Below are positions 18,772 through 39,799 of a stretch of 44,030 nucleotides of DNA, in pieces. Each line of letters opens with the position of its first letter. Within the stretch, counting starts at the first letter, position 1. A program made the translations under genes and the position numbers. The notes under the pieces were generated by a model. The model did not search any database. It had not been told where the DNA came from and saw only the letters and a program-made list of their open reading frames with translations. The DNA comes from Synergistaceae bacterium. Lineage in GTDB: Bacteria; Synergistota; Synergistia; Synergistales; Synergistaceae. Location: positions 1 to 44,030 of the forward strand of contig JAAYFQ010000011.1 in assembly GCA_012728165.1 (NCBI GenBank). Direction: 5' to 3'.

Positions 18772-20169
18772 TTATTTTCCTCCATATTGTTTCTTTTTAC
18801 GAGCATACCATTCTTCTATTATTCTTTGTTTTCCTCTGCTAATGGCAAGCGAACCCTCAGGAACGTCTTTTGTTATTGTTGACCCGGCTGCTGTCATAGC
18901 ATTATTACCAACTTTTATGGGAGCAATAAAAATAGTGTCACTACCTATAAAACAATTATTTCCTATAATGGTGCCGTTCTTTTTTTCACCATCATAATTA
19001 GCAGTTATGGTTCCAGCACCAATATTTGTGTTTTCTCCGATTTCACTATCACCTATATAAGAAAGATGTGGAATTTTTGTTCCTTTTGATACATGACTGT
19101 TTTTAATCTCTACAAATCTTCCTACATGCACATTATCCATAAGTTCGGTACCTTCTCTTATAAATGCATATGGCCCTATTGTTGAGTTATCTCTCACATA
19201 ACTATTATTTATTCTAGTAGAACCTATTATACTTACATTGTCTCCTATTTGTACATTATTAAGCACTGTGAAACTTCCGATTCTTGAACCAGAACCAATT
19301 GTAGTGCTACCCCAAAGCTGTACGTTTGGCTCAAGGACAATGTCATTTCCAAGCTTTACGTCTGGTCCAATCCAGGTTGTAGAAGGATCCATAAAGCGAA
19401 CACCAGCTAACATCCATTTTTTCAAAATTCTGTTGCGCATTATTAAAGTAGCTTCAGCAAGCTGAGTGGGGTCATTTACGCCAAGAAACTCATTGGAATC
19501 CGTAGTTTTTATTGCGTCAACCTTACCATTATTTTCCTGTATTAAAGTCAGCACATCTGGTAAATAGTATTCTTTTTGTGCATTTTTACATGTGAGTTTA
19601 TCTATTACTTTGAACAAAAATTCGGTGTTAAAAGCATACATTCCACTGTTTACTTCGTGACATTGGCGCTGAAGATCAGTTGCATCTTTTTCCTCTACTA
19701 CCTTAACTTTATCGCCAAATCTAATTACTCTGCCATATCCTGTTGGTTCTAATGTATCAAAACTCAAAAAACTACATTTATTATCAGAAGCAATATGTTG
19801 TTCTAAAAAAAGCTTTAATGTGCTAGCTGTTATGAGCGGTGTATCACCAGGAAGTATGAGTATATTTTTGTACTCTTTCCACCAGGATTGTGCAAGTTTA
19901 ACTGCGTGTCCAGTGCCAAGCTGCTCTCTCTGCCAAAGCACATCAACATTTTTATATGTAGTTCCAAGCCATTCTTCAACTTTTTCACCGCAGAACCCAA
20001 GCATTACGGCAACATTTTCAACTTCAGCATTTTCCACTGCAGCTAATAGGTAATGAATAAGCGGCTTATCAAGCAATGTTTGAAGAACTTTCGGAGTTCT
20101 ACTATGCATACGTGTACCTTTGCCTGCAGCAAGAACTAATACACAGAACGATTCTTTCTTTTGAGGCAT
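18772..20169 (-). CDS. glmU: Bifunctional GlmU (GlcN-1-P acetyltransferase / GlcNAc-1-P uridyltransferase)
   Basis: A 465-residue bifunctional enzyme making UDP-GlcNAc from glucosamine 1-phosphate, acetyl-CoA and UTP. The N-terminal pyrophosphorylase domain shows LAAGKGTRMHSRTPKVLQ, QLGTGHAV, LPGDTPL and EVNSGMYAF. The C-terminal left-handed beta-helix is marked by hexapeptide repeats from about residue 250 on, with GAGTITANYDGEKK and AAGSTITKDVPEGSLAI near the end. It supplies peptidoglycan and, where present, lipopolysaccharide synthesis. It acts directly after GlmM, which is encoded 2.5 kb away in another transcript. GGGGAG lies 8 bases before the ATG. Confidence 0.97.
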   Translation of the reverse strand: MPQKKESFCVLVLAAGKGTRMHSRTPKVLQTLLDKPLIHYLLAAVENAEVENVAVMLGFCGEKVEEWLGTTYKNVDVLWQREQLGTGHAVKLAQSWWKEYKNILILPGDTPLITASTLKLFLEQHIASDNKCSFLSFDTLEPTGYGRVIRFGDKVKVVEEKDATDLQRQCHEVNSGMYAFNTEFLFKVIDKLTCKNAQKEYYLPDVLTLIQENNGKVDAIKTTDSNEFLGVNDPTQLAEATLIMRNRILKKWMLAGVRFMDPSTTWIGPDVKLGNDIVLEPNVQLWGSTTIGSGSRIGSFTVLNNVQIGDNVSIIGSTRINNSYVRDNSTIGPYAFIREGTELMDNVHVGRFVEIKNSHVSKGTKIPHLSYIGDSEIGENTNIGAGTITANYDGEKKNGTIIGNNCFIGSDTIFIAPIKVGNNAMTAAGSTITKDVPEGSLAISRGKQRIIEEWYARKKKQYGGK

Positions 20170-20229: not shown

Positions 20230-20304
20230 TGGCTGGGGCGGATGGACTCGAACCATCGATGCCGGAGTCAAAGTCCGGTGCCTTAACCGCTTGGCTACGC
20301 CCCA
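20230..20304 (-). tRNA. tRNA-Gln (anticodon UUG)
   Basis: The minus strand folds into a full cloverleaf. The acceptor stem is TGGGGCG (20304-20298) with CGCCCCA (20240-20234), followed by G73 and an encoded CCA. The anticodon stem CCGGA/TCCGG encloses the loop CTTTGAC with TTG at the anticodon. The T arm contains GGTTCGAGTCC. A likely promoter sits immediately upstream. Confidence 0.97.
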
Positions 20305-20346: not shown

Positions 20347-20585
20347 CAGCTAATTGGATAAGATATCATTTCAGTTTGTATCTTCTGACTATTTTTTTTA
20401 AAATTGGCAAATAATATATTCTGATGATATGTTCAATTAACTGTTATTATCGATATGATTTACTGCACAATTGAATATTCTATCTGCAAGCACTGTTTTT
20501 GTCTATTTTTTATTGATAATATTTTAAATATGCTTCATTAGTGACTATTTTGTTCATTGTAATAATATTTATATAATTTCTGAAT

Positions 20586-20593
20586 GCTATAAT
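20586..20593 (+). promoter_or_regulatory. Extended -10 promoter for the orphan secreted gene
   Basis: TGCTATAAT (TG at about 20585-20586, TATAAT at 20588-20593) is an extended -10 element without a good -35 partner. It would give a leader of about 70 bases to the ATG at 20673. Confidence 0.4.
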
Positions 20594-20672
20594 TATAATA
20601 TACTTTTGTATATAACCAAACATACATCATTGGGTAGGTATCTTTTGTTATATATATTTTAGGGGTGTACAT

Positions 20673-21776
20673 ATGCGAATAAAACCAACTATGAAATATT
20701 TTCTTGCTTTATTTTTTGTTCTGTGTTTCCTGTTTCTTCCTAAATATCAAGCAATTGCGAATCCCGATATAGATTCATATGAAATAAAAATTCCATTTGT
20801 GGTTGGAGAGTCCGTAACTGCGTCTTACAATGGCCAACAATACACAATAGGTGAAGTTGTAGCCCTTCCGACTAAAACACGTTGGCCAAGCTATACCGCA
20901 AGTGCATGGGGAGTCCCTGGTGAAATATGTGCTAGTGCAGTAAACGCAATCCACATGCTTGTCTCTGTTGAAAAAGATAAAGGGCGTACTATGAGCATAA
21001 TTCCTAAAGAAACAATAGCTCCCGCTGCTGGGGCAGGTGCTTCTATTGTTCTTTCGACAAAAGCAGGCTATGGAATATTTGGTTCATGGTCACCCACAGT
21101 CGGTTCACAAGTATTTATTCAAAAACAAGGTTCTTCTTTAAAAGAATTATTAAATATAGATAATCTTCCTAAAAGTGGAGATGCTCTCGTAATATATGTG
21201 CAAAATTTGCAGCTTCCATATATGGCTGAAATAGAAAACCACCCAGGCGGACGCGTAACTATTTGGGATAAAGATGGTTACAACGTTATCGGAAGAGTTA
21301 TTAAACCAGTTGGTGGGACAGGGCGATTTGAAGGAACTTTGTTTCAACGTACATCCGCTTTACGCGCAAATCATAGTGGAGTTATAGACTACAGCACTTC
21401 GCCCTACGGAAAAATCGGCGGATTTCAAATTATCCCTTGGGAACATGCGATTTCATCAAAAGAAATGCAAGGAGCATGGGATATGACACAGTGGTTAATT
21501 ATTGGACCAAAAGACGGCATTTCAAAAATAGGAAGCACTTTTCCTTTATTTAAACAGGGACTAGTGACAGGCCCCTCTAATGGAGAAACGCTGTGGGATG
21601 TTTGGTCTACATATGGAAAAAAATCTCTTTTCCTTGTTCGAATAAATGGAGGTCCGTGGCAGAAGATTTTTGATATAACAGGTAAAAATGATACTGCTCT
21701 CAGTGCCGTCACGCATTTACGACTATACTTCCCTTTTCACAGAGAAATTCAAGAAAGTCCTAATAAATGTCAGTAG
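20673..21776 (+). CDS. Secreted protein of unknown family
   Basis: I do not recognise this 367-residue protein. It begins with a clear signal peptide: a basic MRIKPTMK head, a hydrophobic core around residues 9-22, and a likely cleavage after AIA near residue 29, so it should be exported. The mature part has no visible membrane span and only two Cys, one near residue 90 and one next to the C-terminus. It is rich in Gly, Ser, Trp and aromatic residues, with beta-strand-like segments such as WSPTVGSQVFIQ and GRVTIWDKDGYNVIGRV. AGGGG sits about 7 bases before the ATG. It is the only complete plus-strand gene here, isolated between galU and tRNA-Gln with its own promoter candidate, so neighbours give no hint of function. 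Confidence 0.85.
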   Translation: MRIKPTMKYFLALFFVLCFLFLPKYQAIANPDIDSYEIKIPFVVGESVTASYNGQQYTIGEVVALPTKTRWPSYTASAWGVPGEICASAVNAIHMLVSVEKDKGRTMSIIPKETIAPAAGAGASIVLSTKAGYGIFGSWSPTVGSQVFIQKQGSSLKELLNIDNLPKSGDALVIYVQNLQLPYMAEIENHPGGRVTIWDKDGYNVIGRVIKPVGGTGRFEGTLFQRTSALRANHSGVIDYSTSPYGKIGGFQIIPWEHAISSKEMQGAWDMTQWLIIGPKDGISKIGSTFPLFKQGLVTGPSNGETLWDVWSTYGKKSLFLVRINGGPWQKIFDITGKNDTALSAVTHLRLYFPFHREIQESPNKCQ

Positions 21777-21828: not shown

Positions 21829-22707
21829 CTATATAATTCTTTCTTCTTTCAGTGTTTCTAAAACTATTTTTCTCAATTTCTTGTCCTGAAGAGCCTTTAC
21901 AATTGTAGCTTTTATCCAACCCTCTCTCACTCCGCAGTCCAGTCTTTTCCCCTTAAATATACATCCATACACGGGTTCTGATTTCAACATAGATGCTATA
22001 GCATCTGTAAGTTGAAACTCTCCCCCTCTCCCTGGTTTGATTCTTTTTAAATGAGAAAAAATAGAACGAGATAGGATGTATCTTCCCATTATAGCCAAGT
22101 TAGATGGAGCCAATTTAGGATCAGGCTTTTCGACTAAGCCGTTAATTTTATATATACCAGGTTCTACTTCTTCAGCATCTACAATTCCATATCTTGAGGT
22201 CTCATTATTAGCAACTTTTTCTAGACATAGAATTGACCCTCCATATTTTTTTCTTACTGTATCTAACTGTGTTAATACAGTTGGGGTTGATATCATGACA
22301 TCATCTGGAAGTAATAACGCAAAGTGGGACTTACTACAAAACTTTTCTGCACATAGAACAGCATGTCCCAACCCTAACGGTTCTTCCTGTAAAGCATAAT
22401 GAAAGGCTGCTAGATCAGGTATTTTGCTTATTAAAGAAACCAAATCTTTCTTATTTTGATTTAAAAGATGTTTTTCTAGTTCTATAGAATGTTTAAAGTA
22501 TTTTCTTATTGATTCTTTTCCAGTTCCTGTGATAAAAACAATTTCGGTGCACCCTGACGCAACAGCTTCGTCAACACCATGATGAATTAAAGGCCTGTCT
22601 ATTAGCGGTAGCATTTCTTTTGGAATATCCTTTGTTGCAGGCAAAAACCGTGTTCCTAGTCCTGCAACAGGAAATACTGCTTGTTTAATGGTTTCGAAAT
22701 CAGACAT
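21829..22707 (-). CDS. galU: UTP-glucose-1-phosphate uridylyltransferase
   Basis: A 292-residue GalU-type nucleotidyltransferase that makes UDP-glucose from UTP and glucose 1-phosphate. The N-terminal signature is AVFPVAGLGTRFLPATK, followed by PKEMLPLIDRPLIHHGVDEA. Further motifs are EEPLGLGHAVLCAE, LLPDDVM and VEKPDP, and GGEFQLTDAI near residue 235. The catalytic-loop segment reads ATKDIPKEML where many GalU proteins have ATKAMPKEML. The ATG overlaps the glmM stop in TAATG, so phosphoglucosamine mutase and this enzyme are coupled, joining two sugar-nucleotide steps for the cell envelope. It converges with the orphan secreted gene 52 bases away. Confidence 0.95.
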   Translation of the reverse strand: MSDFETIKQAVFPVAGLGTRFLPATKDIPKEMLPLIDRPLIHHGVDEAVASGCTEIVFITGTGKESIRKYFKHSIELEKHLLNQNKKDLVSLISKIPDLAAFHYALQEEPLGLGHAVLCAEKFCSKSHFALLLPDDVMISTPTVLTQLDTVRKKYGGSILCLEKVANNETSRYGIVDAEEVEPGIYKINGLVEKPDPKLAPSNLAIMGRYILSRSIFSHLKRIKPGRGGEFQLTDAIASMLKSEPVYGCIFKGKRLDCGVREGWIKATIVKALQDKKLRKIVLETLKEERII

Positions 22708-28883: not shown

Positions 28884-28903
28884 ATTCAGTAATAAATGGA
28901 CTT

Positions 28904-34431: not shown

Positions 34432-35535
34432 TTATTGATAATAATTTGATAATGGATTCTCTCTTCTTGCATTATTTAATACATCATTTATTCTTTTTCG
34501 TAATTCATTAAGAGTTGGCATTTCGGGCAAACATTCACTTTTTTTAATGATGTTATTACCTCTTATAAACAAAGATTCTTCTCCATCTCTTTCGGTTACC
34601 TGTATATCATATGGTGCTAGCTCTAGTTCAAGATTATTATTTAATTTTATAGTCAGCTCATTAAATATGTTTTCGGCCTCTTTAGACTCTTTAAGGGAAA
34701 CAAGAGTGTGTCCATCAACTGTCAAAAGAATATCACCAGAAACATTTGTTGTTACGATTTTCAAACTTTGAACGGCTTCTTTTCTCTGTACCTCAATTCC
34801 CTTGTCTTTCATATATTTTAGTGCAGCATCAACTCGTTCCTTATCGTCAGGGTGAGTTTGATAAATACCTGGATCAACATATGCTTTTTTTAATCTCTCA
34901 ATTTTCAGTCGCTCCATAGTGGTTAGCATTGCTGAAGGGTTATAACCGGCTTTATGCAATATATCTATTCCCCTTGCATCTGCCTCTTTTTCCATATCAA
35001 TGCTATATGAATTCATTATAGCAGTCTGCAAGCCATTTGACATAAGCATAGCAGGAACACCAGCTCCTTGTGTTGCGGCAATAATTCCGATAAGGGTAAT
35101 AATGTTTAATTTGGCGTTTTTGGCATTTTGTATAATTACATGAGCTCTGTCTGCATGAACAAATTCATGAGCTAGAATGGCCGCTATCTCCGCATCGCTT
35201 TTAAGAAAAGAAAGCATTCCTGTAGTTATATACGTTGTTCCACCGGGCAAAGAAAAAGCATTCGGTTCTTTCATTTCTAATATTCGAACATTATAATCTA
35301 AGTCTCTCTGCAAAAAAGGTGTTAATTTACCTGTTATCATTGCAAGGTGTGCTTCTTTATTAGGATCAAGAACCCTAGGAAGGGTTTTCTCTATCTCAAT
35401 AACAGCCTTTTTCCCCATCTTTATTTCACGTTTAATTGTTTTAGTCGAAGGTTCAGGAGTAGTGTAGGCTTCTATTGAAAGCGTTGAAGAACAAATAAAG
35501 AAAATTATTAATAAAAATTTGCTTAATTTTTTCAA
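34432..35535 (-). CDS. Secreted M48-family zinc metalloprotease
   Basis: A 367-residue protein with a signal peptide (KKLSKFLLIIFFICSSTLSIEAY) and an M48 peptidase domain. The zinc site is HEFVHADRAH near residue 125 (HExxH), and the third ligand Glu lies in MEKEADARG. Upstream is the family segment NAFSLPGGTTYITTGML. BepA-like and related periplasmic members of M48 degrade or help fold envelope proteins. That role is inferred. The C-terminal 110 residues are not a recognised domain. Start is TTG 35535 with GGAGG 7 bases upstream. Longer in-frame starts would run into the palindrome. It stands between that palindrome and dnaX. Confidence 0.9.
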   Translation of the reverse strand: MKKLSKFLLIIFFICSSTLSIEAYTTPEPSTKTIKREIKMGKKAVIEIEKTLPRVLDPNKEAHLAMITGKLTPFLQRDLDYNVRILEMKEPNAFSLPGGTTYITTGMLSFLKSDAEIAAILAHEFVHADRAHVIIQNAKNAKLNIITLIGIIAATQGAGVPAMLMSNGLQTAIMNSYSIDMEKEADARGIDILHKAGYNPSAMLTTMERLKIERLKKAYVDPGIYQTHPDDKERVDAALKYMKDKGIEVQRKEAVQSLKIVTTNVSGDILLTVDGHTLVSLKESKEAENIFNELTIKLNNNLELELAPYDIQVTERDGEESLFIRGNNIIKKSECLPEMPTLNELRKRINDVLNNARRENPLSNYYQ

Positions 35536-35559
35536 AAAAACACCTCCCCTGATACATCC

Positions 35560-35565
35560 ATTATA
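35560..35565 (-). promoter_or_regulatory. Possible -10 box for the M48 protease gene
   Basis: TATAAT on the minus strand lies just downstream of the trxB palindrome and about 25 bases before the TTG start. No convincing -35 box is seen at the right distance. Its position after a terminator-like hairpin is the main support. Confidence 0.3.
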
Positions 35566-35600
35566 TATTACTTGCGTTTTTATCGCGCACAAGAGCAATT

Positions 35601-35662
35601 TTACTGCCATATAAAGAACAGAGAGGGGCATTTGCCCCTCTCTGTTCTTTATATGGCAGTAA
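35601..35662. repeat. 62-bp perfect palindrome (probable bidirectional terminator)
   Basis: Bases 35601-35630 and 35633-35662 are exact reverse complements, giving a 30-bp stem with a 2-base centre. The inner part is GC-rich (GAGAGGGGCA) and the outer part AT-rich, so each strand has a GC stem followed by a T-rich stretch (CTGTTCTTT), as in a bidirectional intrinsic terminator. It lies 11 bases after the trxB stop. Confidence 0.85.
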
Positions 35663-38887: not shown

Positions 38888-39799
38888 TCATTTTTCTGGA
38901 TGAAGCGCAAGATCAAGAGCAGCAAGAGCAATCTCTATTTGGTCAAGCCTTGGCTCTTTTGTTGTTAAATACTGAAGTGAAAGCGCTGGCATTATACACA
39001 TACTGCCCCAGGTTTCAGAATTAGATGCGGCCTTTATAAACTCATAAGATATTCCTATCACCAGCGGTAGGAGGAGAACCCTGGTGCCAATGCGCCATAC
39101 AAAAGATCCTTCACCAATAATTGAAAATATAATTATACTGATAGAAATTACAACCAACAAAAAAGATGTTCCGCAACGCCTATGTATTCTGGAATAACGA
39201 GAAACAACTTCAGGAATAAGTTCAGCACTATTCTCATAAGCATTTATGGTTTTGTGTTCAGCCCCGTGGTAACAGAAAACTTGCTGCATGTCTTTCCATA
39301 AACCTATAACTGCAACATAGCCTATAAATATCATCCCTCGCATAATACCTTCCATTGCATTTTTACCGACACTTGTAAAGCCAAAGACGGAAGTTATATG
39401 TTCAGATAAAAACATTGGCAGAGCAACAAAAAGACCCACAACTGCGAAAATAGCAACAGCTATAGCTCCTATCATTTCTAATGGGGTCATTTTATCCTCT
39501 TCTCCAAGGTTGACTTCAGTAGAAATTGTAAGTGCTTTCGTGCCCATTCTCATCATTTCTATCATGGTAGCAAACCCACGAACAATGGGGCACTTCCAAA
39601 TCCCTTTCTTTAGCCAATCTGAGCCCAACCATGCTTTTAGCCAGATAGAACCTGAAGGTTCTCTAAGAGCAAGTCCCCAATGTTCGGGACCCTTCATAAG
39701 AACCCCTTCAATTACTGCTTGCCCGCCTACTGGTATTCTTTTTGGAGGCAAGTCCATGACTGAATTCATAATGATTTGTATAAAGAAAAATATCTTCAT
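38888..39799 (-). CDS. yqhQ: DUF1385 membrane protein (YqhQ family)
   Basis: A 303-residue polytopic membrane protein of the DUF1385 family. The N-terminal IPVGGQAVIEGVLMKGP and the central YHGAEHKTINAYEN are family signatures, and at least four hydrophobic segments lie between residues about 110 and 250. The biochemical role is unknown to me. The family is typically found beside prfA, prmC and rpmE, as here. The ATG at 39799 overlaps the thyX stop by four bases. Its ribosome binding site is weak, so an internal ATG at about residue 11 or 15, nearer the conserved start, is possible. Confidence 0.9.
   Translation of the reverse strand: MKIFFFIQIIMNSVMDLPPKRIPVGGQAVIEGVLMKGPEHWGLALREPSGSIWLKAWLGSDWLKKGIWKCPIVRGFATMIEMMRMGTKALTISTEVNLGEEDKMTPLEMIGAIAVAIFAVVGLFVALPMFLSEHITSVFGFTSVGKNAMEGIMRGMIFIGYVAVIGLWKDMQQVFCYHGAEHKTINAYENSAELIPEVVSRYSRIHRRCGTSFLLVVISISIIIFSIIGEGSFVWRIGTRVLLLPLVIGISYEFIKAASNSETWGSMCIMPALSLQYLTTKEPRLDQIEIALAALDLALHPEK

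Follow-up and report, generated by a model that had tools for sequence, protein, structure and literature searches.

The window analysed here, a stretch of 44,030 nucleotides from a member of the Synergistaceae, raises the question of what a single secreted protein of no recognised family, encoded on the plus strand amongst minus-strand housekeeping genes, does for the Synergistota, which are diderm bacteria of guts, rumens and digesters. The gene, its sequence signals, the parts of its product and its nearest neighbours are as follows.

20673..21776 (stop codon included), plus strand: gene for an exported protein of 367 aa, an open frame with an ATG start, phylum-wide matches and purifying selection.
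20661..20667, plus strand: ribosome-binding site AGGGGTG, read off the sequence, five bases before the ATG.
20673..20759, plus strand: Sec-type signal peptide, residues 1-29, from hydropathy, with cleavage after AIA placed by eye and the mature start at 20760.
20585..20593, plus strand: extended -10 candidate TGCTATAAT, not above chance.
20760..21164, plus strand: first beta-rich domain, mature residues about 1-135, homologous to the second, from half-to-half profile alignment and the AlphaFold2 model.
21195..21527, plus strand: second beta-rich domain, mature residues 146-256, predicted to fold alone, from the pLDDT of its model and from conservation.
Within 21195..21527, plus strand: second-domain residues R231, H234, Q252, H258, E264, Q273 and W274, from conservation.
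20230..20304, minus strand: neighbouring tRNA-Gln(TTG), found by ARAGORN.
18772-20169, minus strand: glmU (name read from the translation), the upstream flank, an open frame.
21829..22707, minus strand: galU-like gene (name read from the translation), the convergent neighbour, an open frame.

The gene at 20673..21776 is more than a chance open reading frame, as judged by its codon-position pattern together with matches in 85 of the 100 genomes of a smaller genome search (the window's own genome included). A comparison with its closest relative, from the same genus, over 357 codons shows 95 differences at codon position 1, 65 at position 2 and 196 at position 3, which implies purifying selection on the protein, and the frame is open in close relatives. 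The N-terminus reaches a 12-residue mean hydropathy of 3.22 from residue 11 and carries AIA before residue 30, and most of 23 aligned relatives share such hydrophobic N-termini. No second strong membrane span was detected, all 19-residue windows starting beyond residue 35 scoring 1.35 or less. Hydropathy and the AxA site, the latter read by eye, therefore predict a Sec signal peptide followed by a soluble mature part, which bears out the signal peptide proposed by the first-pass annotation from the sequence alone. Its description of the mature part as rich in Gly, Trp and beta-like segments with only two Cys is equally apt, since the 338 mature residues (pI 8.66) contain 10.9% Gly, 3.0% Trp and two cysteines, C86 and C366, and are modelled as mainly beta; a third cysteine, C18, lies inside the signal peptide. 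The suggestion that the gene has an extended -10 promoter of its own has to be dropped, because the window contains 3 sites of this type, TGCTATAAT among them, against 3.6 expected by chance; sigma-70-like sites are also at chance level (9 found versus 7.3).

On its upstream side, 503 bases separate the gene from the start of glmU, with tRNA-Gln in between, and the convergent galU-like gene begins 52 bases downstream. The neighbours in the window are all on the minus strand except for a plus-strand frame at 25-531, at the window edge, and a doubtful 90-aa plus-strand frame at 28896. The gene had been called an isolated plus-strand gene, which is right for its minus-strand surroundings in this window and wrong for most relatives, where a gene designated mrtS usually lies directly upstream. 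Elsewhere in the window, minus-strand genes encode a DUF1385 protein (38888-39799; PF07136, E 1e-76), from a family of unknown function, and a Peptidase M48 family protein (34432-35631; E 1e-25) that is a possible envelope protease.

How widely the protein occurs was asked by the first-pass annotation, and the answer is that the gene is conserved through the Synergistota: a family match was found in 159 of 185 genomes (the window's own included), in 104 of 115 high-quality genomes and in 50 of 62 genera, and all four genomes of the deeper family f11 carry it. A scan of 84,980 named species with two degenerate motifs returned 209 relatives, and the best 80 of these 209 are all Synergistota by title, including Synergistaceae, Thermovirga, Fretibacterium and Dethiosulfovibrio MAGs and the complete genome CP074691. 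On this one motif scan, the family is likely to be restricted to the Synergistota. The 367-aa protein belongs to no Pfam family, has no sequence match in the PDB and no meaningful match in NCBIfam or PHROGs, in line with the earlier statement that no domain could be recognised, and no strong match to a characterised family emerged. An outer-membrane receptor was considered and rejected, since the sole NCBIfam match (FepA-like, E 0.017, 13.4 bits against a cut-off of 583) is at the level of chance. A mobile or phage origin was likewise rejected, as tblastn against 72,556 plasmid and 50,697 phage records gave no match; 24 pattern matches in viral contigs contained no relative. Literature searches on myxosortase, CTERM, the Synergistota envelope and signature or hypothetical proteins returned no study of this locus, as judged by title and the start of the abstract.

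The gene is absent from 6 of 6 f9 genomes, 2 of 2 f2 genomes, G054, the single f12 genome and 3 of 4 f6 genomes (G056, G073 and G080), which indicates that it is dispensable in some lineages. Further genomes also lack it, several of them fragmented assemblies; since many assemblies are fragmented, an apparently absent gene may reflect an assembly gap. At the site of loss in G059 and G068, the glmU-galU interval holds no more than a regulator of the Fur family and a small membrane protein, and in G052 the same pair lies beyond galU and glmS. A Fur/PerR-family regulator followed by a membrane protein of 80-91 aa occupies L144:9075-9726, L145:6884-7562 and L157:11209-11896, where both the gene and mrtS are absent; this pair was profile-tested in L144 (G059) only. 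SLH-domain and secretin genes were examined as co-lost traits in 26 genomes and rejected, because absence of the gene tracked neither, so no envelope trait is tied to the protein in this way. A second, more divergent copy, mostly with 35-42% identity, is present in several genomes from the family to which the window belongs, and inspection by eye of five such neighbourhoods (L045, L046 and L048-L050) gave no evident common partner. In a tree of 23 rows, the window gene groups with others of its genus (100/96), apart from the f11 rows and from most of the second copies, though some long branches come together in this tree and 9 of its 20 inner branches stay open. Just downstream of a full copy, L162 (G145:C204:4610-5060) has two additional fragments that resemble the family in its C-terminal end alone, a sequence arrangement that suggests partial tandem duplication.

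The first-pass annotation had also recommended structure prediction, which gave a confident model of the protein. The AlphaFold2 model, built on an alignment of 75 sequences from the window and related loci, consists mainly of beta strands with a mean pLDDT of 94.1 and a pTM of 0.91, and the second domain modelled alone reached a pLDDT of 91.9. Its two domains are copies of a single one, the product of an internal duplication. When the profile of mature residues 1-140 was aligned with that of residues 135-338, the score was 30.9 (E 2.8e-4), compared with peaks of 22.7 among 200 column shuffles, all made in this direction, and 22.0 among four reversed controls; the opposite direction scored 35.8 (E 4e-5), and the signal was weaker with a first, narrower alignment (E 0.007 and 0.003). 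Conservation was assessed over 105 protein rows, 93 of them different after merging loci with a shared contig. H94, S108, N189, R231, H234, Q252, H258, E264 and W274 are invariant in all 93, N91 and Q273 are kept in 92, and the polar set and W274 are retained from the class Synergistia to the deeper family f11. An invariant polar set of this kind is usual for an active or binding site. This bears on whether the protein might be a structural surface or S-layer-like component with no catalytic role, as its export, its beta-rich and Gly-rich character and its two-domain build would allow. Such a role is highly improbable: the gene is usually present in one copy per genome, its product has no SLH domain by Pfam, and invariant His, Asn, Arg, Gln and Glu residues are unlike surface lattices, which evolve fast.

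The model has no close counterpart amongst the chains with which it was compared. Foldseek returned nothing at E 0.001 or better for the whole model (best E 0.25, probability 0.07) or against viral structure models (best E 0.07), and the second domain alone gave a best E of 0.68. When 982 of the top Foldseek chains were re-aligned with VIA-align, the two best rows were YkuD enzymes, one for each half: LdtMt1 (4jmn) on model residues 5-121 (Z 3.8, rmsd 3.4, 90 aligned) and Csd6 (4xzz) on residues 153-297 (Z 3.8, rmsd 4.2, 105 aligned). For the second domain alone, 4jmn was the only chain of 436 with a Z of at least 2 (Z 3.1, rmsd 3.7, 72 aligned). This recurrence in the models is suggestive of a weak YkuD likeness of both halves (Z 3.1-3.8), and would be accounted for if the protein were a tandem YkuD-like protein that had lost the catalytic Cys and either binds peptidoglycan or cleaves it by other chemistry. 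We regard this origin as unlikely. Unrelated folds often give Z values below 8, and concanavalin A in the third row (Z 3.1, rmsd 6.2, 89 aligned) is a tie by the rule of the tool. The aligned ranges of 4jmn and 4xzz suggest that their registers differ. Unlike the L,D-transpeptidases, the 367-aa protein has no match to the YkuD profile PF03734, nor do any of 27 family members, and hhalign against 30 Synergistota YkuD proteins gave a probability of 0.5% or less. The catalytic HGC-type motif that defines YkuD, present as THGC or TEGC in the listed Synergistota YkuD proteins, is absent from the family, which has no conserved Cys at all: the best, C86, is Cys in 49 of 93 rows, and none is amongst the invariant positions of the 23 rows. 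Given the low Z values, the differing registers, the missing HGC motif and the hhalign result, we do not file the protein as a YkuD enzyme. Genuine YkuD proteins are encoded besides this family in 168 of 183 genomes.

Neighbourhoods across the phylum were compared in a set of 95 loci, corresponding to 87 different genes after merging. It had been asked whether galU and tRNA-Gln always flank the gene, and they do not: galU lies within 5 kb downstream at 33 of 74 testable loci and tRNA-Gln within 6 kb upstream at 24 of 63, with glmU upstream at 26 of 63. Wherever they occur, galU and glmU run on the opposite strand (33/33 and 26/26). A function shared with these housekeeping neighbours was rejected, because the glm/galU context is missing at many loci. 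At the f11 loci, a metallo-hydrolase gene follows in 4 of 4 cases and an unrecognised secreted protein precedes in 3 of 4, one copy of each neighbour having been profile-tested. A larger secreted protein is encoded directly before the gene at L148:10428-11639, L150:7541-8677 and L151:5648-6937, and the L148 copy has no Pfam family.

In many families of the class, the product of the upstream gene, some 180 aa long, is identified by NCBIfam as MrtS, the Synerg-CTERM glutamic-type intramembrane protease, with matches of NF040589.1 to three copies at E 3e-76 to 5e-68, over the curated cut-off. MrtS is found over this cut-off in 125 of 185 genomes and Synerg-CTERM tails (TIGR04564.1) in 136 of 185. 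Among the matches listed, drawn from 140 of the 159 matched genomes with second copies and short fragments left out, 111 genomes have both genes, and in 86 of them mrtS lies directly upstream on the same strand, with a median gap of 57 bases between the profile matches. Of the remainder, 22 genomes have the two genes on different contigs and 3 have them further apart on the same contig, two of these with mrtS about 1 kb upstream on the same strand. When the 87 different loci were split by context (19 gave no verdict and 3 ended too early), mrtS was immediately upstream at 20 of 24 loci that lack the glm/galU context and at 17 of 41 loci that have it. The link to mrtS therefore outlives that to the housekeeping block. 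The 24 loci probably derive largely from lineage f3, and thus from few events, so that these figures count loci rather than independent events.

This operon-like order raises the alternative that the protein is a dedicated MrtS accessory, which would present, modify or receive Synerg-CTERM proteins at the surface of the cell and be kept in genomes without MrtS for a leftover or second substrate. The joint absence of MrtS, Synerg-CTERM and the gene from f9 and f2 speaks for this role. Also on this side, a passage of PMC11980579 states that the cognate acyl-transferase of the related myxosortase is unidentified; the terms Synerg and MrtS do not occur in the main text of that paper, and Synerg-CTERM was found in no paper of the literature searched, a scope with most subscription journals outside it. 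An accessory role of this kind is nonetheless improbable, given that 29 of the 140 listed genomes, the window's own included, keep the gene without MrtS over the cut-off, and that 25 of these 29, by our own count on the listing, also have no Synerg-CTERM match. Conversely, G056 and G080 of f6 retain MrtS and Synerg-CTERM with a response-regulator receiver-domain protein after mrtS in place of the gene (L146:8083-9092 and L160:1559-2401), a possible replacement or insertion. The 22 genomes with the genes on different contigs also count against it. The 367-aa protein itself matches neither the MrtS nor the CTERM profile, and NCBIfam scans detected no C-terminal tail (TIGR04564) that would mark it as a Synerg-CTERM substrate. 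Three f11 genomes have a relative of MrtS below the cut-off, elsewhere in the genome. The window's own genome (G000, 208 contigs) has no MrtS, Synerg-CTERM or SLH match, unlike most of its relatives.

Since the gene occurs without MrtS in 29 of 140 genomes, its product appears to have a role of its own. We favour a general envelope-maintenance factor, an undescribed exported protein found throughout the Synergistota that would be made together with MrtS where the Synerg-CTERM system exists, and give this reading a probability of about 0.5. The protein would be exported by Sec and cleaved by signal peptidase, and the mature part would fold in the periplasm or at the cell surface, where conserved residues of both domains may form one ligand or catalytic site. 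Its substrate in the envelope would most likely be a cell-wall glycan or peptide, or an exported protein. The protein would still be needed where Synerg-CTERM sorting is absent. A far bolder version is a long shot: the protein would be an enzyme of the periplasm or surface that defines the phylum, with a novel fold of two domains that may descend from a YkuD ancestor minus its Cys, and a His/Glu site gained between the two copies would let it supply a missing step of Synerg-CTERM anchoring, in series with MrtS.

We thus read the protein as a putative, undescribed periplasmic or surface envelope protein, whose location, ligand and chemistry we infer, and the original proposal of an envelope component not yet described remains a fair one for an exported and conserved protein of no recognised family, with action in the envelope presumed. 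SlpA/OmpM outer-membrane connectors carry SLH domains, none of which is found in the 367-aa protein by Pfam, and are set apart from it by description. They resemble it, as proposed here, in being envelope proteins, and a passage of PMC9388160 describes them as widespread in deep-branching diderm phyla including Synergistetes. Matched in 159 of 185 genomes, outside every described family and confidently modelled with a fold that Foldseek does not place, the protein is a good target for structure determination. Because the gene usually lies beside mrtS, which encodes an enzyme that processes surface proteins, it is also a good lead towards an undescribed part of the cell envelope, and the link to mrtS offers a concrete candidate partner for the Synerg-CTERM sorting system.
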